NCBI RefSeq assembly: GCF_013266755.1 | Contig: NZ_JABRWJ010000005.1 | Coordinates: forward strand, 124,001-188,000 | Source: Pseudaquabacterium terrae | GTDB lineage: Bacteria > Pseudomonadota > Gammaproteobacteria > Burkholderiales > Burkholderiaceae_C | DNA: 64,000 nt | Reading direction: 5' to 3' | Shown here: piece after piece, positions 2,952 through 64,000 of the stretch | Numbering within the stretch: position 1 is the stretch's first letter | How the letters are laid out: each line of letters opens with the position of its first letter | The notes under the pieces: model-generated | What the model was told of the DNA's origin: nothing | The model's database searches: none | What the model saw: the letters and a program-made list of their open reading frames with translations, nothing else | Program-made: the position numbers and the translations under genes

Positions 2952-3920
<969 letters not shown>

Positions 3921-3987
3921 TAGAATCCCATGCTTTGCTTCTACGCCAGGAAGGCGGCGCGCGTCTGCAGCGCCGCCGCTGCCAACG

Positions 3988-4800
3988 ATGAGCTTCTTCC
4001 AGCTTGTGCGCCTGAAGGCGCTGCTCACCCCGCTGTTGGTGGCCGCGATGGCCCTCGCGGCCGGCTGCGGCTCCGACCCCAAGCGGGACGGGCGCGATGA
4101 CGTCGAGAAATTGTATGCAGACGCGCGCGACGACCTGAACTCGGGCAGCTACGACAAGGCGATCAAGACGCTCGAGCGCATCGAGGGCCGCGCCGCCGGC
4201 ACGCTGCTGGCCCAGCAGGCGATGCTCGACATGGCCTACGCGCAGTGGCGCACCGCCGAACGCGTGCAGGCGATCGCCACGCTCGACCGCTTCATCAAGC
4301 TGAACCCGTCGAGCCCGGCGCTGGACTACGCGCTGTACCTGAAGGGCATCGTCAATTTCAACGACAACATGGGCATGCTCGGCACGCTCGCGCGCCAGAA
4401 CCTGTCCGAGCGCGACCAGCAGGCCTCGCGCGATGCCTACCAGGCCTTCGGGCAACTGGTCGAGCAGTTTCCGGCGTCGAAGTACAGCGCCGACGCGAAG
4501 CTGCGCATGGACTACATCGTCAACTCGCTCGCCGAGCACGAAGTGCATGTGGCGCGCTACTACTTCCGGCGCGGTGCCTTCCTGGCGGCGGCCAACCGCG
4601 CACAGCAGGTCGTGCGCGACTACCCGCAGGCGCCGGCCAACGAGGAAGCGCTTTACCTCATGGCCGTCAGCTATGAGCGCCTCGGGCTGACGGCGCTGCG
4701 CGACGACGCCGACCGCGTGCTGAAGAAGAACTTCCCGAAGAGCCGCTTCGTGGAGGGCGGCGAGCGCGTCTCGGATCGCCCCTGGTGGAAATTCTGGTGA
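3988..4800 (+). CDS. bamD: Outer membrane assembly lipoprotein BamD
   Basis: BamD is the essential lipoprotein partner of BamA in the beta-barrel assembly machine of the outer membrane. The 270-residue product begins with a type II signal peptide ending LAAGC, whose Cys would be lipidated. It is followed by five TPR-like helical repeats (for example LYADARDDLNSGSYDKAIKT and LLAQQAMLDMAYAQW). The chosen ATG places the signal peptide correctly; upstream in-frame codons add a non-signal sequence overlapping rluD. It is convergent with the helicase gene, whose stop lies 4 bp away. Confidence 0.95.
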   Translation: MSFFQLVRLKALLTPLLVAAMALAAGCGSDPKRDGRDDVEKLYADARDDLNSGSYDKAIKTLERIEGRAAGTLLAQQAMLDMAYAQWRTAERVQAIATLDRFIKLNPSSPALDYALYLKGIVNFNDNMGMLGTLARQNLSERDQQASRDAYQAFGQLVEQFPASKYSADAKLRMDYIVNSLAEHEVHVARYYFRRGAFLAAANRAQQVVRDYPQAPANEEALYLMAVSYERLGLTALRDDADRVLKKNFPKSRFVEGGERVSDRPWWKFW

Positions 4801-11052: not shown

Positions 11053-12315
11053 TCAGATGTCGAACAGCAGGCGCGCCGGGTCTTCCAGCGCATCCTTCAT
11101 CGCCACCAGGCCGAGCACCGCTTCGCGGCCGTCGATGATGCGGTGGTCGTAGCTCATCGCCAGGTAGTTGATCGGGCGCACGACGACCTGGCCGTTCTCG
11201 ACCACCGCGCGGTCCTTGGTCGCATGCACGCCGAGGATCGCCGACTGCGGCGGGTTGATGATCGGCGTCGACAGCATCGAGCCGAAGGTGCCACCGTTGC
11301 TGATCGAGAAGGTGCCGCCGGTCAGCTCCTCGATGCCGAGCTTGCCGTCCTTGGCCTTCTGGCCGTACTCGGCGATCTTCTTCTCGATCTCGGCGAAGGT
11401 CATCTGGTCGGCATTGCGCAGGATCGGCACCACCAGGCCGCGCGGCGAGCCGACGGCGATGCCGATGTCGAAGTAACCGTGGTAGACGATGTCGGTGCCG
11501 TCGACCGACGCGTTGAGCACCGGGTACTTCTTCAGCGCCGCGACCGCCGCCTTGACGAAGAAGCTCATGAAGCCGAGCTTGACGCCGTGCTCCTTCTCGA
11601 ACTTCTCCTGGAACTTCTTGCGCATCTCCATCAACGGGGCCATGTTGACCTCGTTGAAGGTGGTCAGGATCGCGTTGGTGGCCTGCGACTGCAGCAGGCG
11701 CTCTGCCACGCGGGCACGCAGGCGCGACATCGGCACGCGCTGCTCGGGGCGGTCGCCCAGGTTCGGCGCGACCGGCGCGGCGACGGTCGGCAGCGGCCTC
11801 GCAGCGGCCGGCGCGGCGGCGGGCGGGGCCACCGGGGCGGCAGCAGGCTTCGCCGCAGCGGTACCCGTGGCGAGCGCGCCGAGCACGTCGCCCTTGGTGA
11901 CGCGGCCGTCCTTGCCGGTGCCGGCGACCGAGCCGGCGGCCAGGCTGTTATCGGCCATCAGCTTGGCGGCAGCCGGCATCGCGATGTCGGACTTGCTCGT
12001 GGAGGCCGGCGCCGCGGCGGGTGCCGCGGCCGCGGCGGCAGGCGCCGCCGCAGCGGGCTTGGCGCCGGCGGCGGCCTCGGTATCGATCTTCGCAATCAGC
12101 TGGTCGCTGACCACCGTGCCGCCGCTGGCCACGACGTGTTCGGCCAGCACGCCGGCGGCCGGCGCCGGCACTTCGAGCACGACCTTGTCGGTCTCGATCT
12201 CGATCACGATCTCGTCCATCGCCACGGCTTCGCCGGGCTGCTTCTTCCACTGCAGCAGGGTGGCTTCGGCCACCGATTCTGAGAGCTGCGGAACCTTGAC
12301 TTCGATGATTGCCAT
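11053..12315 (-). CDS. sucB: Dihydrolipoyllysine succinyltransferase, E2 of 2-oxoglutarate dehydrogenase
   Basis: E2 core of the 2-oxoglutarate dehydrogenase complex, transferring succinyl from lipoyl-lysine to CoA. The 420-residue protein has one lipoyl domain ([11 protein letters not shown], lipoylated Lys44), an Ala/Pro-rich linker, the peripheral-subunit-binding domain (about residues 115-150, [13 protein letters not shown]) and the C-terminal catalytic domain ending with [12 protein letters not shown], which contains the active-site His and Asp. It is flanked by sucA and lpdA on the same strand. Confidence 0.95.
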
Positions 12316-12392
12316 GTCGGGTCTCTGCTTTGTTCGTTGCGCGCGCGAGCGCGCGTCGCGGCGCTCGAGCAGCCGCGACGCGATGCGAGGAG

Positions 12393-15251
12393 TTACTTGG
12401 TGAGGACGAAGCCCTTGAGCTTGCCGAAAGCCTGGTCGAGCAGCGCCTTCAACTGCTCCTGGTGCAGGTGGGCATAACCCACCGCCGGCGAGGCCGATGC
12501 CGGCCGGCCGGCATAACCCAGCTTCTGGCCGTCGGTCATGTTCTCGTGGATGTAGTGCTGCACGAAGAACCAGGCGCCCTGGTTCTGCGGCTCGTCCTGG
12601 CACCACACGACCTCGGTGCAGTTCGGGAAGCGCTTCATCTCGGCCGCGAAGGCCTTGTGCGGGAACGGGTAGAGCTGCTCGACGCGCATGATCGCGACGT
12701 CCCAGGCCTTCTTCTCGTCGCGCTTCCTGATCAGGTCGTAGGCGACCTTGCCCGAGCAGGCGATCACCCGCTTGACCTTGTCCGGTTCGACCTCGGTGCG
12801 GGTCGGGCCGATCACCGTCTTGAATTCGCCCTTCGTGAACTCCGACAGCGGCGAGGTCGCGTCCTTCGCGCGCAGCAGCGACTTCGGCGTCATGATCACC
12901 AGCGGCTTGCGGAACATGCGCACCATCTGGCGCCGCAGCACGTGGAAGATCTGGCTCGCCGAGGTCGGCTGCACGACCTGCATGTTGTTGTCGGCGGCCA
13001 GCTGCATGAAGCGCTCCAGGCGCGCCGAGCTGTGCTCCGGACCCTGGCCTTCGTAGCCGTGCGGCAGCATCAGCGTGATGCCGTTGGCGCGGCCCCACTT
13101 GACCTCGCCCGAGGCGATGAACTGGTCGATGACCACCTGCGCGCCGTTGACGAAGTCGCCGAACTGCGCTTCCCAGATCGTCAGCGTGTTCGGCTCGGCC
13201 GACGAGTAGCCGTATTCGAAGCCGAGCACCGCCTCTTCCGACAGGATCGAGTCGATGACGACGAACGGCGCCTGGTTGTCGGCGATGTTCTCCAGCGGCG
13301 TGTAGACGCCGGCATCCCACTTCTCGCGGTTCTGGTCGTGCAGCACCGCATGGCGGTGCGTGAACGTGCCGCGGCCGCAGTCTTCGCCCGACAGGCGCAC
13401 GCCGTAGCCGGAGGCGACCAGCGAGGCATACGCGAGGTGCTCGCCCATGCCCCAGTCGACGTTCAGCTCGCCGCGGCCCATCGCCGCGCGGTCGGCCAGC
13501 ACCTTCTCGACCAGCGGATGGACCTTGAAGTTCGCCGGCACCGTCGTGATGCGTTCGGCCAGGCGCTTGACCTCGGCCAGCGGCAGCGCGGTGTCGGCCG
13601 CATCGGTCCACTTCTTGCCGAGGAAGGGGGCCCAGTCGACCGCGTACTTGCTCTTGAAGTTCGTGAGCACCGGGTCGACGGTGTGCTTGCCGGCGTCGAA
13701 CGCGGCGCGCAGGTCCTTGACCATCTGGTCCGGGCCCTCGGGCGGCAGCACGCCCTGCGCCACCAGCTTTTCGCCGTAGTGCCGGCGCGTGCCCGGGTGT
13801 TTGCCGATGACCTTGTACATCAGCGGCTGCGTCAGGCTCGGTGTGTCCTGCTCGTTGTGGCCAAGCTTGCGGAAGCAGATGATGTCGAGGACGACGTCCT
13901 TCTTGAACTGCTGCCGGTAGTCGAGCGCCCACTGCGTGCACAGGACCACGGCTTCGGGATCGTCGCCGTTCACGTGCAGCACCGGCGCTTCGATCATCTT
14001 GACGACGTCGGTGCAGTACAGCGTCGAGCGCGCATCGCGCGGGTCGCTGGTGGTGAAGCCGATCTGGTTGTTGATCACCAGGTGCACCGTGCCGCCGGTG
14101 AAGTAGCCGCGCGTCTGCGCCAGCGCCAGCGTTTCCATCACGACGCCCTGGCCGGCGAAGGCCGCGTCGCCGTGCACCAGCACCGGCAGCACCTGGTCGC
14201 CTTGCGCGTCGCCGCGACGGTCCATGCGCGCCTTCACCGAGCCCTCGACGACCGGGTTGACGATCTCCAGGTGCGACGGGTTGAACGCCAGGCTGATGTG
14301 CACCGGGCCGCCGGCGGTCGAGATGTCGCTCGAGAAGCCCTGGTGGTACTTGACGTCGCCGGCAGGCAGGTGCTCGGGCGCGGTGTGCTCGAACTCGGCG
14401 AACAGGTCCTTCGGCATCTTGCCGAGCGTGTTCACCAGCACGTTCAGGCGGCCGCGGTGGGCCATGCCGATGACGATCTCCTGCACGCCCTTGGCGCCAG
14501 CGCGCTGCACGACCTCGTCCATCGAGGCGATGAAGCTCTCGCCGCCCTCGAGCGAGAAGCGCTTCTGGCCGACGTACTTCGTGTGCAGGAAGCGCTCGAG
14601 GCCCTCGGCGGCGGTCAGGCGATCGAGGATGTGCTTCTTCTCGTCCGCGCTGAAGTTCGGCTTGCTGCGCACGGACTCGACGCGCTCCTGCCACCAGCGC
14701 TTCTCGGTCGGATCGGTCACATGCATGAACTCCGGACCGATCGTGCCGCAGTACGTTTCCCGCAAGGCCTGCACGATCTCGCGCAGGGTCATGTTCTCGG
14801 CCTTGGAGAAGTAGGTGTTCGCCGCGCTGAAAGTGATGTCCATGTCACTTTCGGTCAGGTCGTAGAACGCCGGCTCCAGCTCGGGGATCTTCGGACGCTC
14901 GGTGCGCTTGAGCGGATCGAGGTCGGCCCAGCGCGAGCCGAGGAAGCGGTAGGCGGCGATCAGCGACTGGACATGGACCTGCTTGCGCGCGACCGCCAGG
15001 TCGGCGGAGCTGGTCTTGAGCGCAAAGGCGTTGGCCTTGGCCCGCTGGGCGAAGGATTCGACGACCGGTGCATGGGCGACGTCGCGGCTGTCGGTGCCGT
15101 CGGTCGCGGGCACGTTCTGCAGGTTGTCGAAGTAGGCGCGCCAGTTGTCCGGCACGCTGCCCGGGTTGTCGAGGTAGGCCTCGTAGAGTTCCTCGACATA
15201 CGGGGCATTGCCCCCGAACAGGTACGAGTTGGACCTGTGCTGCTGCATCAT
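12393..15251 (-). CDS. sucA: 2-oxoglutarate dehydrogenase E1
   Basis: Thiamine-diphosphate-dependent E1 that decarboxylates 2-oxoglutarate in the TCA cycle. At 952 residues it has normal family length, starting [20 protein letters not shown] with the E2-binding N-terminus. The central TPP site is visible ([23 protein letters not shown]), and the transketolase-like C-terminal part contains [19 protein letters not shown] ribosome-binding AAAGGTGAG precedes the start; the first or second Met may be used. It is the first gene of sucA-sucB-lpdA-zapE. Confidence 0.96.
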
Positions 15252-57859: not shown

Positions 57860-57889
57860 AAAGGGCCAGCGTGAGCTGGCCCTTTTTTC
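57860..57889 (+). terminator. Rho-independent terminator of hppA
   Basis: AAGGGCCAGC-GTGA-GCTGGCCCTT followed by TTTT lies 20 bp past the stop. Confidence 0.93.
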
Positions 57890-57904
57890 TTGGGTCCCTG
57901 CGGC

Positions 57905-58210
57905 TCAGGCGCGCAGGTCGAGCAAGCTGCCCAGCATCTCCTGCTCGGTCTTGAAGGTCTGCATGTTGGCCTTGAACTCGTACAGCGCGACGCGCTGCGC
58001 GACCACGTCATCGGCCAGCGCGTTGCCTGCCTCGGCTGCCGTGGACAGCGTGACGAACACCCCGCCGCCCGGCTGCGTCTGCGCCGACGCGATCTCGCGG
58101 CGGAAACCGTCGGTGCCGAGATTGGCCACGTTGTGCGACGCGCTGCCCAGCCGCTGCATTGCCGCCTGCATGCCCGACAAAGCGATCGAGCTGGTCGATT
58201 GAAGGCCCAT
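57905..58210 (-). CDS. Flagellar basal-body rod-like protein, small
   Basis: A 101-residue protein whose N-terminus (LQSTSSIALSGMQAAMQRLG, then ASHNVANLGTDGFRR) matches the flg_bb_rod motif shared by FlgB, FlgC, FlgF and FlgG. Its C-terminus (VALYEFKANMQTFKTEQEML) resembles the rod-family ending. It has no middle domain, so it is either a minimal rod-like protein or a degenerate copy. No other flagellar gene is nearby. The ATG at 58210 was chosen because upstream codons overlap the tRNA fragment. Confidence 0.75.
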   Translation of the reverse strand: MGLQSTSSIALSGMQAAMQRLGSASHNVANLGTDGFRREIASAQTQPGGGVFVTLSTAAEAGNALADDVVAQRVALYEFKANMQTFKTEQEMLGSLLDLRA

Positions 58211-58249
58211 TCGCTGCTTATCGGCCGCGCTTCGAAAGACTTGAGGCAG

Positions 58250-58288
58250 AAAAGCAAACGGGCCGGCTCCTTGTGGAAACCGGCCCGT
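58250..58288 (-). terminator. Terminator of the original tRNA-Pro gene
   Basis: A 9-bp stem (ACGGGCCGG and complement, 13-nt loop) followed on the minus strand by TTTGCTTTT lies 11 bp beyond the CCA end of the tRNA-Pro fragment. It is chromosomal and supports that side being the tRNA's native downstream flank. Confidence 0.75.
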
Positions 58289-58299
58289 GGCCGAATCAA

Positions 58300-58349
58300 T
58301 GGTCGGGGTGGCGGGATTCGAACTCGCGACCCCTTGCACCCCATTCAAG
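58300..58349 (-). tRNA. 3' fragment of tRNA-Pro (anticodon GGG) marking the attachment site
   Basis: On the minus strand the sequence from the anticodon loop ATGGGGT through GCAAG, the T-arm loop TTCGAAT and CACCCCGACCA is the 3' half of tRNA-Pro(GGG). The D-arm and 5' acceptor are missing: upstream sequence is unrelated. The T-stem has an A-C mismatch (GCGAG against CCCGC), as expected of a fragment free of selection. It is not a functional tRNA. It is the residual half left when an element integrates into a tRNA gene and restores the intact copy at its other end. Confidence 0.85.
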
Positions 58350-58495
58350 GACGAACAGCCTGAAGGCGGGCTTTCCGGGGATCAGTTGTCATCTGAGCCA
58401 ACAGATAAATCGCTTATACAACAAGCACTTACGCAGAAACGAAGATCGGCAAGCCACGATCCGCGTCTCGTGTTGTCGTTTGTGCCCTCTTGAAA

Positions 58496-58546
58496 TTGGT
58501 ATCCGGCGCGGTATCCTGCGCCCCGACGGGACTCCCCGGATACCAA
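58496..58546. repeat. Repeated GGTATCC sites upstream of the integrase
   Basis: TTGGTATCCGG (58496-58506) and CCGGATACCAA (58536-58546) are perfect 11-bp inverted repeats 29 bp apart, with a third, direct GGTATCCTG at 58510-58518. They sit 13 bp before the integrase start, between it and the att core. They are candidate arm-type integrase sites or an operator. Confidence 0.7.
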
Positions 58547-58558
58547 ATCAGGACTGCC

Positions 58559-60082
58559 ATGGCAGCGAAGCACAAGCTGAAGAAGGTAGACATCGAGGCG
58601 TACCTGGCCGGTCCGAATGAGTCGCCGCTGCATGATGGTGGTGGCCTGTACCTGCGCAAGCGCGGAGCGAATGCCTACTGGTACCTGCGCCAACGCAACG
58701 CAGCCACCGGTGCGCGTACCTGGGCGCCTGTGTTTCCGCCTGGGCCGTCTGCTGCGTACCCCGGTCGCAACCTTGATGATGCGCGCAAGGCCGCTCGCGA
58801 TGCCGAAGTGCAGGCAGACCAGCCCGGCGGCCTGGACCTCATCCGGCAGCGCGCCGAGACCGAACGCGAAGCACTTGCCGAGCGCGCGCGCCGTGCAGCT
58901 GCTGGTGAGGCCGAGCGCCTCGAACGCGAGCGCCGCATCACGGTCCAGGCGCTGTTCAGCCGGTGGCGCGAGGTCGACCTCCAGCCACACGTCGGCGCGA
59001 ACGGCAAGCGCCTGGGACGGAAGGACGGGGGCCAATACACGGCCGAGCAGTTCGACCGTCACGTCTTCCCTGCGATCGGCGCGCGCGCCGTGGTCGACGT
59101 GCGCAAGGCCGACCTGATGGACATCCTGGACAGGGTGAAGTCGACGGGCAGACGGCGGACAGCAAACGTGCTGCTGGCCGACCTGAAGCAGATGCTGAAC
59201 TGGGCGTTGAACCGCGAGTTGATCGAGAGGAACCCGCTGGCGACGGTCACCCGGCGCGAGGTCGGCGGCGAAGAAGGTGGCCGCGAGCGCATCCTGGGCG
59301 CGGATGAGATCAAGGCGCTCGCCCAGGCCTTGCAGGGCTCCGGCATGTCGCCTCGCAGCACCTCGGCCGTCTGGCTGATCTTGAGCACTGGCTGCAGGAT
59401 CAGCGAAGCGATGGGCGCGCGGTGGGAGAACGTCGACTTCACGACGCGCACGTGGTACCTGCCGGACTCAAAGAATCAGCGAGATCACACCATTCATCTG
59501 TCGGAGTTCGCGCTTCGCCAGTTCGCCGAACTGCGTCGCCTGGAAGATCAGCGGGTGCACGACGCGATCGAGAACGAGCGGATCGAGCGCCGGAAGGCTG
59601 CCCGCGCGCGAGGCATGACGCTGGCCGAAGCCAACGCGGCCACCATCGCTGTCGACACCACCGGCATACCCGAGTTGCAGCCATCGGAGTGGGTCTTCCC
59701 GAACGCACGAAACACCGGCCCGGTGGACGTGAAGTCCTTCGGCAAGCAGCTGGCCGACCGGCAGCGGGCGGCGGATCGCCGTCTGCAGGGGCGCGCGAAA
59801 GCGACCGACAGCCTCGCGCTGCCCGGCGGCCGGTGGACGGCGCATGACCTGCGGCGCACGGCGGCCACCGTTATGGCCGAGCTGGGGATCAGCGGCGACG
59901 TGATCGATGAGTGCCTGAACCACGTGATCGAAAGCCGCGTGCGCCGCACCTACATCCGCAATCGGCGCCTCCCCGAGCAGGCCCGTGCGTTCGACGCGCT
60001 CGGCGGTCAGCTGCAGCAGCTGACCGACGGCGCAGCCTCCCGGCCCGCGCCCGGAGCACCCACGCTGCGCCGCGTCGCCTGA
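58559..60082 (+). CDS. int: Tyrosine-type site-specific integrase
   Basis: A 507-residue phage/island-type tyrosine recombinase. The N-terminal arm-binding domain of the DUF4102 type (LHDGGGLYLRKR, GARTWAPVFP) is followed by a core-binding domain (ALFSRWREVDLQPHV). The catalytic residues are Arg280 in STGCRISEA, His429 and Arg432 in AHDLRRT, His455 in LNHV and Tyr465 in RRTYIRNR. A ~70-residue insertion lies between the first Arg and the His-x-x-Arg box. AGGA precedes the ATG. It points away from the tRNA-Pro att fragment, as expected. Confidence 0.95.
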   Translation: MAAKHKLKKVDIEAYLAGPNESPLHDGGGLYLRKRGANAYWYLRQRNAATGARTWAPVFPPGPSAAYPGRNLDDARKAARDAEVQADQPGGLDLIRQRAETEREALAERARRAAAGEAERLERERRITVQALFSRWREVDLQPHVGANGKRLGRKDGGQYTAEQFDRHVFPAIGARAVVDVRKADLMDILDRVKSTGRRRTANVLLADLKQMLNWALNRELIERNPLATVTRREVGGEEGGRERILGADEIKALAQALQGSGMSPRSTSAVWLILSTGCRISEAMGARWENVDFTTRTWYLPDSKNQRDHTIHLSEFALRQFAELRRLEDQRVHDAIENERIERRKAARARGMTLAEANAATIAVDTTGIPELQPSEWVFPNARNTGPVDVKSFGKQLADRQRAADRRLQGRAKATDSLALPGGRWTAHDLRRTAATVMAELGISGDVIDECLNHVIESRVRRTYIRNRRLPEQARAFDALGGQLQQLTDGAASRPAPGAPTLRRVA

Positions 60083-60146
60083 TCGAAATCACGGCCGGCG
60101 CCGCCGCGGCCCTCGAATCGGCGGCAAGCACACAGAGAGAAGAATC

Positions 60147-60317
60147 ATGGACGTCGTGGAAACGAATGAACTGGCGGTCTTCGTGGAAGACACCACCGCA
60201 GGGCGCTTGGCGTTCCTGGACATCGGCGAGCAGCACGACGTGCTCGTCCTGGGCCGGGGCGACCTGCTGCGGCTGCAGGCTCAAGTGAGTGCTGCGCTGG
60301 CCCGGGTGGACCGGTAA
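60147..60317 (+). CDS. Small acidic hypothetical protein
   Basis: A 56-residue frame beginning MDVVETNELAVFVEDTTAGR with AGAGAGAAG upstream, 64 bp after the integrase stop. It is acidic and amphipathic (LGRGDLLRLQAQVSAALARV at the C-terminus). I recognise no family. Codon use and a good ribosome-binding site favour a real gene of the element. Confidence 0.6.
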   Translation: MDVVETNELAVFVEDTTAGRLAFLDIGEQHDVLVLGRGDLLRLQAQVSAALARVDR

Positions 60318-60320
60318 GGG

Positions 60321-60416
60321 ATGGCGCAGCAAGTGTCGGCGGGCGGGACCTACCCGGACCCGACCGCCGAGCCGACCACCAGCTATATCCTTCGGGTGCG
60401 CAAGGTCTTTCGATGA
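60321..60416 (+). CDS. Possible 31-residue peptide
   Basis: A short frame starting MAQQVSAGGTYPDPTAEPTT, three bases after the previous stop, with TAAGGG abutting the ATG. Tight packing suggests translation by reinitiation. There is no recognisable family and it could be chance. Confidence 0.35.
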   Translation: MAQQVSAGGTYPDPTAEPTTSYILRVRKVFR

Positions 60417-60499
60417 GCCTCCGGCACCAGACTTGCACGGACGACAACACAACCCAACAACGCGGCCGGACGCGACCTGACGCGCCACCCGCACGTTAG
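60413..60499 (+). CDS. Possible 28-residue basic peptide
   Basis: A frame beginning MSLRHQTCTDDNTTQQRGRT overlaps the preceding stop by ATGA. It is Arg-rich and has one Cys. It is supported only by the coupling geometry. Confidence 0.3.
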   Translation: MSLRHQTCTDDNTTQQRGRTRPDAPPAR

Positions 60500-60534
60500 G
60501 ACGTTCCCTCTTCGGCTGCTACATTGATCGGCGA

Positions 60535-60558
60535 GGCAGTACGTCCCGACGTACTGCC
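60535..60558. promoter_or_regulatory. Perfect 10-bp inverted repeat before a terminator
   Basis: GGCAGTACGT-CCCG-ACGTACTGCC is a perfect stem-loop or operator-type palindrome, only 11 bp upstream of a terminator hairpin and about 90 bp before the AlpA-like gene. Confidence 0.65.
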
Positions 60559-60568
60559 CACCACGCAA

Positions 60569-60595
60569 GGGCCACCCACCGGGGTGGCCTTTTTC
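60569..60595 (+). terminator. Rho-independent terminator after the integrase cluster
   Basis: GGCCACCC-ACCG-GGGTGGCC followed by TTTTT separates the integrase transcript from the AlpA-like operon. Confidence 0.85.
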
Positions 60596-60649
60596 ATTGG
60601 GCCTGCTGATTCCAAGAGCGGTCAGCAGCCCGCCAACGAGGAGAACCCT

Positions 60650-60937
60650 ATGGCCCATAAGGCCTGTTTTCAGACCCCGGCCGCGCTGACCGCGGCAGAC
60701 GCCCTGCTGACACGAGCCGTCGTGCTGCAGGTGCTCGGCATCGGCGAGACGCGGCTGCGCGAACTCGTCGCCGACGGCACGCTGCCGCCGGCAGTGCAGA
60801 TGTGCGGCGCGCCCAGGTGGCTCGCGACTGAGGTGCGCGCGGTGGTCGACGCCGCCAAGGCCGGCGCCGGGGCGGTGGACCGGCTGCGCGCCCTAACCCG
60901 CGAATTGATCGCCGCACGTGGCGTGAGTGCTGCGTGA
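60650..60937 (+). CDS. AlpA-like DNA-binding protein (regulator or excisionase)
   Basis: A 95-residue protein with a MerR-like winged helix of the AlpA/excisionase type: VVLQVLGIGETRLRELVADG is the helix-turn-helix, then APRWLATEVRAVVDAA is the W-x-x-E-V wing end. AlpA-family proteins activate island integrase and excision genes; Xis proteins bend att DNA. GAGGAG precedes the ATG. The stop overlaps the next gene, so it leads an operon with the two unknown genes and the primase. Confidence 0.8.
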   Translation: MAHKACFQTPAALTAADALLTRAVVLQVLGIGETRLRELVADGTLPPAVQMCGAPRWLATEVRAVVDAAKAGAGAVDRLRALTRELIAARGVSAA

Positions 60938-61611
60938 TGGCGCGGCCAGAAAAAACGAAGCCCGGCGGCGGTGGAACGCCCCGGGCCTCTGGCATCCCCA
61001 TGACCGAACACAAGGACGAAAAATTGACGCGTGATGATACCTGCGCTCCAGCGCGAGCGGGCGACGATCTGTGCACCGCGGACATTGCCGGGGTGCACAT
61101 GCCGCTGGCACCCACCAACAACGACACCCGACGCCTGACGAACACGCGAAACGCTGCGTTCGGCCTCTGGTCGGGCTTCCTGATGGAGAACCTGCCCCTG
61201 TGCCTCGCCGCGTTGCCCGCTTCGAACCCCCGGCGCCGACTCGCTGAGAGGCTGCTGCACGAGCAGATCGAGCGCGAGCGCGCGCCGGCCGATGCCGAGC
61301 AAGTGCTGATCTATGACCGCGCGCGCACTGCGGCGTCACTGTGGCTCTTGCACGGAGCCCCGTCCCTCTCAGACCTGGTCGCGTTCCTCCGATCGTCAGA
61401 CTTCGAGAACGGCGGCGGCAAAGAGCTGCAGGAGTGCTACCTGGCTGAAGTCGGTGCGCATCGGATCGACGACCTGACGCCTGCCCAGCGATGGGAGCTC
61501 GCGGCGAGAGCGTTCGAAACTGAGAGCCACGATGAGGCGGGGTCCGTACTCGTGCGCGAGCGGCGCGCGATGGGCCTGCCGATTCCGTTCGCGGTTGAGG
61601 GGGTGCACTGA
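60937..61611 (+). CDS. Hypothetical protein of the element
   Basis: A 224-residue protein I do not recognise. The N-terminal ~60 residues are polar and likely disordered. The rest is helical (GFLMENLPLCLAALPASNPR, RLAERLLHEQIERERAPADA, LTPAQRWELAARAFE). It has no membrane segment or signal peptide. The ATG overlaps the AlpA-like stop (TGATG), implying coupling. A start at 61000 (MTEHKDEKL) is possible but lacks a ribosome-binding site. Confidence 0.7.
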   Translation: MARPEKTKPGGGGTPRASGIPMTEHKDEKLTRDDTCAPARAGDDLCTADIAGVHMPLAPTNNDTRRLTNTRNAAFGLWSGFLMENLPLCLAALPASNPRRRLAERLLHEQIERERAPADAEQVLIYDRARTAASLWLLHGAPSLSDLVAFLRSSDFENGGGKELQECYLAEVGAHRIDDLTPAQRWELAARAFETESHDEAGSVLVRERRAMGLPIPFAVEGVH

Positions 61612-62183
61612 TGGACACCACCGACCTGCCACAGCAGGACTGCGGCGTGGCTCGCGCCGCGGGGGCGCTGGCCGGCGCGGGCGGCCCGGCCAACCGCCGC
61701 GCCGAACCCGCAGTGCTGATGTTCGCCGCGACCGGACGCATGCCTGAGTCCGACGCTGACCTGCACCACCTGGTGCGCATGCTGGGCGATCTCTCGATGG
61801 CCGTCGCGTGGCGCGAGTACCACCCCCGGGCTGCGCTGCTGGCCGAGCAGTTCAGAGACTGCCGGCGGATCAAGATGCAAGTTCAGGTCGACGCGCTCCG
61901 GCTCGCGCGTGACATGGTCGCGGCGGGCAGGATCGAGATGACCCGCCGCGGCGCCGACGCTGCGATCGTGCAGGTGCGCAACGTTGCCGGGTGCCTGGGC
62001 ATGACGAACGTCGCCAACGACTTGATCGCAGACAGGCGCCGCGCGTTCGACGCCGTCGCGCGCAAGTACGGCTGCACGCTGCAGACGCTGGCAGCGGAGC
62101 ACGTCGCCGAGGAGCGCCTGGGCGACCTGTTCGCCGATCTGCGCCGCCTCGAAGCCGAGCTGCAGGAGGGCGACGGATGCTGA
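61611..62183 (+). CDS. Hypothetical protein of the element
   Basis: A 190-residue, mostly helical, soluble protein with no family I recognise. Segments such as SDADLHHLVRMLGDLSMAVA and VAEERLGDLFADLRRLEAEL suggest a coiled-coil or DNA-associated role. Start and stop overlap neighbours (TGATG; ATGCTGA with the primase), so it is expressed with the primase and may be a replication accessory factor. That is inference from context. Confidence 0.7.
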   Translation: MDTTDLPQQDCGVARAAGALAGAGGPANRRAEPAVLMFAATGRMPESDADLHHLVRMLGDLSMAVAWREYHPRAALLAEQFRDCRRIKMQVQVDALRLARDMVAAGRIEMTRRGADAAIVQVRNVAGCLGMTNVANDLIADRRRAFDAVARKYGCTLQTLAAEHVAEERLGDLFADLRRLEAELQEGDGC

Positions 62184-64000
62184 ACCAGCACATCACCACC
62201 CTCCGCACGCGCGGCCCCCTGCTCGCAAAACAGTGGCGAGCTGACGGCACGATCGCCAACTACGATTCGCCGCGGCAGTACACGTTCAAGCGCCAGGTCG
62301 TCGGCGGCATCGACCACCTGTACCTGTTGCTGCAGGAACTGCAGCGCGACCCGCGCAGCTGCATCATCCGCGGCCAGCCGAAGGCCGGCACCGACCCGAA
62401 GGCGGTGGTGCTGCGCAACCTCGACACCTTCGAGGACGAGCCCAGCCACCTGTTCATGGTCGACGTCGACCGGTTCGAAGGCACGGTCGAGGAGTTCGTC
62501 GCCACGCTGCCCGCGCCGCTGCAGGACGCGTCTTTCGTGTGGCAGCTGTCCGGCTCGCACGGCCACCCGTCGAAGGGCGGCGGGCTGCGGGCTCACCTGT
62601 GGTTCTGGCTCGAGACACCACTCACGTCCGAGCAGGCCGAGGCCTGGGCGAAACAGTGGATCCCGCAGGCCGACTGCACCGTCCACCGCACCGTGCAGGT
62701 CAACTACACCGCGGCGCCCGTGATGGATGACGGCGTCAGCGATCCGATCGCGCAGCGCCTGGGCTTCGTCGAGGGCATGCTCGGCCACAACGTCATCATC
62801 CCCGCGGACATGCCCGTGCCCGAAGGGCAGACCCGGCGCACGCGCCGCGCGGAGCGCGCGAGCGGGATGGTGGATCCGCGCGACAAGCCCGGCATCATCG
62901 GCGCGCTCGCCAGGGCGCACCCCGCCGCCGAGATCGTCACGCTGTGGCCCGACCACTTCGAGGCCGGCAGCAAAGAGCATCGGATCACGTGGCTCGCCGG
63001 TGGCGGCGCGAAGGAGGGCGTGGGCGTCGCCGACAACGGCACGCACCTGTTCAACACGCACAGCACGAGCCCCATCGCCGACCGCGCGGCCAACCTCTTT
63101 GACTTCGTGCGCGCGCACGTCTTCGGCCACCTCGACGAGGGCATCGACCAGGACGTGCTTGACCTGGACGTCACCGCGGCGCCGAGCTACCTCGCCACCG
63201 TCGAATGGGCGCTGTCCCTGCCGACCGTGCAAGCCGAAGTGCAGGCCGAGCAAGCGGCCATGGCTGAGATGCGGGAGACGCTGGCCGCCGGGGCCGACGC
63301 CGCCACCAGGGACTATGAGGACGCACCGAATGCCGCGGGAGCGGCTGTCTACTTCGCGAGCAACCTGCCAGCTGCGGACCCGGGCGCGGAGTCGGCTGCG
63401 CGTTGCCCGGCCGAAAGCACAGTAGCCACCCCAGCGGATTCCAGCGGCGTCGTCGGGCCGGCCGTCGCGGCCGAGGCCGAGGCCGACGCCGACGATGGAC
63501 AAGAGGACGAGGACGAGCGCCGGGTGCTGGTGCCGGGTGAGCACTCCGTGATCGCCAGCAAGTTGTGGCGGCGCAAGTTCGGCGGCCCCACCGCGCCCGG
63601 CCTGATTCGCTGGAACTGTGACTGGTACCGGCGATCCGGTGACGGCTCGCACTTCGGCGAGATGCCGGGGGAGGCCCTGGCCGCCGCGTGCCACAGGTAC
63701 CTCGTGAGCGCCCGGAAGATGACCCAGCCAGGGCCTGCCGGCGAGCCGGCGAGGCTGGTGCCCTTCAACCCCAACAAGCAGGCGACGGATGAGGTGATCT
63801 ACGCGCTGCGGACGCTGTGCCATCTCGACGAGCAGGCGGCGCCCGTCTGGATCGGCGGCAAGGCCCCGACGGGCTATGAAGGCCTCCGGGCAGCGGACCT
63901 GGTGGCGCTGCGCAACGGCCTGTTCCACCTCCCGACGCGTCGCCTGTTTCCGCACACGCCGCACCGCTTCGGCCTCGCGGCCCTGCCGTACGAGTTCGAC
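62177..64000 (+). CDS. Phage/plasmid-type primase with D5_N-like region, 3' end cut by the window
   Basis: 608 codons are visible and the frame is open at the edge. The N-terminal part looks like an archaeo-eukaryotic primase. FMVDVDRFEG has the paired Asp (about 96 and 98) expected to bind metal; WQLSGSHGHPSKGGG (about 123-136) and RAHLWFW (His140) fit the nucleotide-binding Ser/His motifs. An acidic Ala/Glu/Asp linker lies near residue 430. The last 30 residues (ALRNGLFHLPTRRLFPHTPH, then FGLAALPYEF) match the D5_N domain that precedes the SF3 helicase in P4 alpha-type proteins. The helicase itself would lie beyond the window. Confidence 0.8.
   Translation, partial: MLNQHITTLRTRGPLLAKQWRADGTIANYDSPRQYTFKRQVVGGIDHLYLLLQELQRDPRSCIIRGQPKAGTDPKAVVLRNLDTFEDEPSHLFMVDVDRFEGTVEEFVATLPAPLQDASFVWQLSGSHGHPSKGGGLRAHLWFWLETPLTSEQAEAWAKQWIPQADCTVHRTVQVNYTAAPVMDDGVSDPIAQRLGFVEGMLGHNVIIPADMPVPEGQTRRTRRAERASGMVDPRDKPGIIGALARAHPAAEIVTLWPDHFEAGSKEHRITWLAGGGAKEGVGVADNGTHLFNTHSTSPIADRAANLFDFVRAHVFGHLDEGIDQDVLDLDVTAAPSYLATVEWALSLPTVQAEVQAEQAAMAEMRETLAAGADAATRDYEDAPNAAGAAVYFASNLPAADPGAESAARCPAESTVATPADSSGVVGPAVAAEAEADADDGQEDEDERRVLVPGEHSVIASKLWRRKFGGPTAPGLIRWNCDWYRRSGDGSHFGEMPGEALAAACHRYLVSARKMTQPGPAGEPARLVPFNPNKQATDEVIYALRTLCHLDEQAAPVWIGGKAPTGYEGLRAADLVALRNGLFHLPTRRLFPHTPHRFGLAALPYEFD

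Follow-up and report, generated by a model that had tools for sequence, protein, structure and literature searches.

A probable satellite-type integrative element in tRNA-Pro(GGG) of Pseudaquabacterium terrae, with an ordinary core and an unusual delivery-related gene

The phage satellites described so far mostly steal heads or packaging, and the hallmarks of P4 are Sid, Psu, Delta and Epsilon. Here, we describe a new satellite-type element in Pseudaquabacterium terrae (genome size 8.04 Mb), an island of about 13.9-14 kb in tRNA-Pro(GGG) that combines an ordinary core of integration, regulation and replication genes with an unusual delivery-related gene, which encodes a 108-aa membrane protein ending in a peptide of phage ejection-region genes. 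The island begins near the right end of a 64,000-nt stretch of contig NZ_JABRWJ010000005.1 (C45:124001-188000), referred to below as the window, and its right half lies past the window end.

According to PMC10803314, phage-inducible chromosomal minimalist islands (PICMIs) of Vibrionaceae are small islands with excision and replication genes, AlpA regulation and a phage-protection gene, and without capsid-remodelling genes; the mean sizes given there are 9.5 kb for phage-inducible chromosomal islands (PICIs) and 14 kb for capsid-forming PICIs (cf-PICIs). The island of P. terrae resembles PICMIs in its excision and replication genes, its AlpA-type gene, the lack of capsid-remodelling genes and a candidate phage-protection gene. 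However, PICMIs adjoin fis, whereas the island lies in tRNA-Pro(GGG), with MerR-, ihfA- and pheT-like genes outside it (names given by reading the translations), and carries a KAP ATPase, a PIN protein and the membrane protein with the ejection peptide. With PICIs and cf-PICIs, it shares the integrase, AlpA, primase, defence-type cargo and size. Unlike the island, in which none was recognised, cf-PICIs have capsid, portal and large-terminase genes of their own, and the TerS of PICIs is matched only very weakly, by a second helix-turn-helix (HTH)-like protein (E 0.005). The features in common with P4-like satellites are the integrase, the AlpA-like gene, a P4-family primase and the tRNA site, but no Sid, Psu, Delta or Epsilon family appeared among the Pfam and PHROG matches of the ten island proteins scanned. 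The original prediction, which was made from the window alone and spoke of a P4-like or satellite-type element, stands as to the satellite type, and "P4-like" applies to the primase family only; comparison with P4-like elements, PICIs and cf-PICIs, which it proposed, established membership in none of them.

Borders and core genes of the island

The island spans C45:182296-196286 (window position 58296 onward), and its right part was recovered from the same genome in a continuation stretch, L007, in which position p corresponds to window position p+57999. A direct repeat of 54 bp, identical at 53 of the 54 positions, flanks the island (L007 297-350 and 14234-14287; spacing 13937 bp). The left copy (window 58296-58349) contains the truncated 3' end of tRNA-Pro(GGG), in minus-strand sense (58300-58349), and ARAGORN finds an intact tRNA-Pro(GGG) on the minus strand at the right end (L007 14238-14314, that is, C45:196237-196313), overlapped by the second repeat copy. 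It follows that the right copy forms the 3' end of the tRNA itself, and that the truncated one is the copy in the window. The truncated tRNA had been predicted correctly, and extension to the right, proposed as the check for an intact tRNA-Pro(GGG) and a second core copy, revealed both; the core itself had been put at 45 bp, which is too short. By blastn, the match between the left border region and the right border reaches about 109 bp at 81% identity. Past the tRNA end, the element appears to carry its own terminator-like hairpin.

An empty site is present in a congener (G143), where the left flank abuts the intact tRNA: the stretch matching window 57861-58296 (77.7%) stops 3 bp from a tRNA-Pro that is identical to that of the host at 77/77 bases. 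The G+C content is 67.0% in the island and 68.1% in the left flank. Additional 49-bp copies (96%) of the tRNA-Pro 3' end were observed in two other congeners (G644:C40:41709-41757 and G656:C45:3257-3305), the former about 4.7 kb from the intact tRNA; these copies suggest that other islands occupy the same site there.

Open reading frames (ORFs) were called with a simple purpose-built codon model. The first core gene, on the plus strand like those that follow, encodes a tyrosine integrase of 507 aa (window 58559-60082, L007 560-2083) with matches to Pfam Phage_integrase (1.6e-23), Phage_int_M and Arm-DNA-bind_3 and to the PHROG integrase family (6.7e-52). A 95-aa AlpA-like HTH protein, a putative excisionase or regulator (window 60650-60937, L007 2651-2938), heads a series of four genes that are translationally coupled via the start/stop overlaps GTGATG, TGATG and ATGCTGA. 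The second and third genes of the series encode g225, of 224-225 aa (window 60937-61611, starting at GTG 60934 or ATG 60937 and ending at L007 3612), and g190, of 190 aa (window 61611-62183, L007 3612-4184). Neither protein matched a family in the Pfam and PHROG scans, and the structure models, with predicted local distance difference test scores (pLDDT) of 41.9 and 42.8, respectively, were not usable. The fourth gene encodes a P4-family primase/helicase of 919 aa that begins at window 62177, is cut by the window end at 64000 and continues to L007 6937 (C45:188936; L007 4178-6937 in full). It matches D5_N (5.1e-6), DUF5906 (1e-11) and NCBIfam TIGR01613, "phage/plasmid primase, P4 family" (1.4e-50; 171.9 bits against a cut-off of 108.7). 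Searched with this primase, the genome contigs returned two relatives.

The island proteins scanned against Pfam, PHROG, PADLOC and NCBIfam yielded no match to families of capsid, portal, large-terminase or tail proteins. Moreover, the fetched phage and island loci supplied 4550 ORFs (150 aa or longer) for comparison with the island, and the alignments were confined to the integrase, primase and small membrane protein. Most of what had been predicted for this part thus holds, namely the integrase, a primase with D5_N-like sequence, the coupling of four genes, the lack of recognisable capsid and tail genes, an element that runs out of the window, and a satellite-type element rather than a full prophage with structural genes. 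The AlpA assignment is borne out by a PHROG excisionase/regulator family (PHROG_66, E 4.4e-5), but as an HTH protein the match is weak (HTH_17, E 0.013, below the Pfam cut-off).

This anatomy supports site-specific insertion, a capacity for excision and replication, and the absence of recognisable virion genes. The integrase and the AlpA-like factor would mediate excision from, and insertion at, the 3' end of tRNA-Pro(GGG), which the element would rebuild on integration, and the excised circle would be copied by the primase/helicase. Because there are no recognisable virion genes, exit from the cell would have to make use of helper-phage particles.

A small membrane protein with a phage ejection tag

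The 108-aa membrane protein is encoded at L007 7981-8307, behind an AGGAGG ribosome site. Its N-terminus is hydrophobic, and its C-terminus carries the sequence GEIREGYRFLGGDPADRSSWAK, referred to as the tag, which is similar to the C-terminal part of PHROG_11341 (E 5.3e-5; final 37 of 678 profile positions). In a tblastn search with the C-terminal 69 aa (E up to 10), 34 phage records were matched, with the best values for a Bradyrhizobium phage (1e-6) and for F116-type phages (about 5e-6); plasmids gave no match to the protein. With the tag of the Bradyrhizobium phage as the query, 25 phage records were matched (E up to 1). In F116, Epa33, 8P, ppBeUSDA76-2, EBPR podovirus 2, BUCT695 and T5S1, the tag ends a protein of 496 to 720 aa in the structural/ejection region, and it forms the C-terminus of an ejection-region gene in EBPR podovirus 2, Aeromonas phage BUCT695, a Zobellviridae phage and the F116-type phages. 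In BUCT695, a gene annotated as DNA injection protein lies four genes upstream of the tag gene.

Two scans of viral contigs yielded 507 and 413 confirmed tag stretches, respectively. For a census, the best 80 loci of each scan were considered, on the plus strand and with the longest tag ORF per locus, a procedure that small extra tag ORFs could escape. The tag lies within 30 residues of the C-terminus in 86 of the 91 distinct viral tag ORFs; the median length is 478 aa for the complete ones (n = 80), and in 80 of the 86 cases the ORF that follows either has at least 250 aa or runs off the contig. Small tag ORFs are represented in these loci by a single 80-aa fragment of the F116 type. Three distinct contigs differ in that the tag occupies the N-terminus of the adjacent large ORF, once in tandem (L179 5890-12081, also L273, for the tandem case; L294; L320). 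By eye, the bodies of the tag proteins look mutually unrelated. Because the tag is usually C-terminal, sometimes N-terminal, and attached to unrelated-looking bodies, it appears to behave as a portable docking peptide. It seems to be undescribed, the string GYRFKGG occurring in no paper of the literature searched.

The reading that we favour, with moderate confidence, is that the island is a satellite-type integrative element with helper-borne exit, whose membrane protein acts on podoviral DNA delivery. Located at the inner membrane, the 108-aa protein would act on the DNA-delivery machinery of podoviruses and most likely exclude rival phages, by analogy with SieA of P22. According to PMC10883804, SieA is a superinfection-exclusion protein, small and located in the inner membrane, which is proposed to act on ejection proteins. 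The likeness is one of description: the 108-aa protein is also small and of the membrane type, but it has an ejection-cluster peptide of its own. Ejection proteins are packaged with the DNA in the procapsid, according to PMC8954989.

Alternatively, the protein might be a hitch-hiker of the virion instead of an excluder, with the tag loading it into helper particles for delivery together with the DNA. In phages the tag sits on proteins adjoining ejection genes, and its N-terminal position in the three contigs fits a portable docking peptide. The membrane anchor, however, agrees better with a site in the inner membrane, and we consider hitch-hiking possible but unlikely.

The tag is the end of a phage gene, and an IMG/VR phage contig that also has a large terminase encodes a primase with 39-40% identity to the island primase over the N-terminal part of the latter. 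Both observations would also fit a podoviral prophage remnant that had lost its virion module, in which the tag would be what is left of an ejection gene at its 3' end. However, the borders are intact (53/54), as are the core genes with their coupling; the tag gene has a ribosome site and a start of its own; no fragment of the other fetched virion genes was detected in the island; and three further islands of like build exist (see below). A remnant is thus quite improbable.

Several observations weigh against a satellite that depends on a helper and acts on DNA delivery. No packaging gene was recognised in the island, and there is no packaging signal to point to, no search for cos sites having been made. 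The second HTH-like protein (L007 7565-7954) is no sure TerS, since PHROG_57 (TerS, 0.005) ranks after an excisionase family (1.6e-6). No helper phage was found: the host genome contains the tag DNA pattern a single time, within the island itself, and a protein search agrees, the host's capsids, terminases and other prophages not having been searched. The island was found in one genome, and of the 399 family genomes, 6 (its own among them) encode relatives of the whole primase at E 1e-30. The tag DNA pattern was present in three of 398 family genomes (the reversed control pattern in none of the genomes listed), namely in the island, in an island of G191 described below, and in a 99-aa ORF of G383 that ends in the tag but has no membrane segment. 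Finally, two phage ORFs align to nearly the whole membrane protein; they do not contain its membrane/DRWTG segment, and we judged these alignments to be due to chance.

The lack of an identified packaging gene or helper would suit an ordinary integrative genomic island with a plasmid- or phage-type primase that makes no use of phage particles and moves by conjugation of flanking DNA, transformation or generalized transduction, although no relaxase was identified either. Defence-type cargo is common on integrative genomic islands, and g225, g190 and a coiled-coil protein of the island, cc336, have no matches. On the other hand, an AlpA-like gene together with a P4-family primase is a satellite core module, and a phage ejection tag suggests that the partner is a phage. 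An ordinary island is therefore, in our estimation, a rather unlikely explanation.

The 99-aa tag ORF of G383 (L218; G383:C19 near 402825) adjoins a host gene resembling peptidyl-prolyl isomerase genes. A membrane protein nearby ends in SPWNKYQGQ, similar to motifs at the N-termini encoded by the large genes downstream of tag genes.

If the satellite reading is true, an ejection-cluster peptide on a satellite membrane protein would make DNA delivery a further target of piracy or exclusion. The tag, which is widespread on viral contigs, also provides a short, testable handle on the recruitment of podoviral ejection proteins.

Further tRNA islands with genome-delivery genes

In three further tRNA islands, the ORFs examined include genome-delivery genes but none for a capsid or large terminase. 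The first, of 14.7 kb, is in the same P. terrae genome (C55:191505-206188; L026/L027, L023) and is bounded by a 16-bp repeat that corresponds to the tRNA-Ser(TGA) 3' end. It encodes an integrase, an AlpA-like protein, a primase with a 43%-identical C-terminus, a portal (PHROG 1.3e-84) and a tape measure (4.8e-123); no capsid or terminase was recognised, and all other called genes are at most 161 aa long. Its portal and tape-measure genes are only 191 bp apart. Among 80 tape-measure matches, 28 fetched viral loci showed a portal as well, and there the distance was always 4.5-7.7 kb.

The second island, of 17.2 kb, is from Xanthobacter oligotrophicus (G657:C33; L024 5432-22677, with L255), and its 14-bp repeat (E 0.03) coincides with the 3' end of tRNA-Ala(CGC). 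In addition to an integrase close to that of the first island (4e-75), an AlpA-like protein and a 44%-identical primase, it encodes TerS (5e-37), a 971-aa endolysin/tape-measure-like protein and a 1256-aa internal virion protein (PHROG_342, 2.7e-88). A large terminase, portal and capsid were not seen among the ORFs examined.

The third island, from the same family as P. terrae, has a length of 15.8 kb and a 17-bp repeat at the 3' end of tRNA-Gly(CCC) (G191:C142; L337 626-16477). Its genes encode an integrase, a primase/helicase, a protein resembling single-stranded DNA-binding proteins, a 497-aa tag protein and a 750-aa neighbour, the gene of which overlaps the tag gene. The sole family match of this neighbour is to the end of an endolysin profile (3.6e-9), and ten further proteins scanned showed no capsid, terminase or portal. 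A 231-aa membrane protein of this island (3378-4073) ends in FDPATGRPV, which we take to be another motif of phage ejection proteins.

The four islands, which are of partly different descent, lead us to propose, tentatively and with considerable doubt, a loose class of tRNA-resident satellites. Such satellites would have no capsid, large terminase or complete tail and would encode genome-delivery parts, whether ejection proteins or a docking peptide, internal virion proteins, or a portal and tape measure, and they would block or hijack DNA delivery, not head building. The island in tRNA-Pro(GGG) would be the most reduced member, with only a docking peptide on a membrane anchor.

Cargo and remaining genes

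The expectation that the most novel genes might lie just to the right of the primase agrees with the recovered sequence, in which the membrane protein is accompanied by a PIN module, a KAP ATPase and cc336. The KAP ATPase (L007 about 11168-12679) matches four PADLOC PDC-S20 models, the best at E 3.7e-71; QatA was ruled out, the NCBIfam QatA score being 44.5 bits compared to a cut-off of 600. The PIN protein (L007 9184-9792; Pfam PIN 2.3e-8) and a 251-aa partner (L007 9789-10544) are encoded on the minus strand by genes with a 4-nt overlap. The partner has five weak plasmid relatives, three of which were examined. In two of these plasmids, from Pleomorphomonas and Cupriavidus, the downstream gene overlaps that of the partner and aligns to the island PIN protein (E 2e-8 and 6e-23); in the third record, the region beside the relative is unannotated. 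Because order and overlap are kept on two plasmids, PIN and partner form a recurring two-gene unit, perhaps a toxin-antitoxin system or a defence nuclease. PDB sequence searches with the 251-aa partner and KAP gave no credible match.

The minus-strand gene of cc336 (L007 12687-13697) is an orphan: no relatives were found in phages, plasmids or viral contigs, nor in any other genome of the 200 from the family and 250 from the order. Its appearance had suggested an ejection protein; against five F116-type tag proteins, however, the hidden Markov model (HMM) score was negative, and the hhalign probability of 0.2 equalled the best of five shuffles. Two minor ORFs complete the inventory: one of 56 aa on the plus strand (window 60147-60317, L007 2148-2318), called from codon usage and weakly matching PHROG families with no assigned function, and a doubtful one at L007 8542-9048.

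The KAP/PDC-S20 gene and the PIN module are probably anti-phage cargo, and they add candidate defence modules to the island. The codon usage of KAP, PIN and the partner is the least host-like (log-odds per codon of 0.05, 0.07 and 0.09, respectively, versus 0.39 for the primase and 0.38 for cc336), which fits the expectation for cargo.

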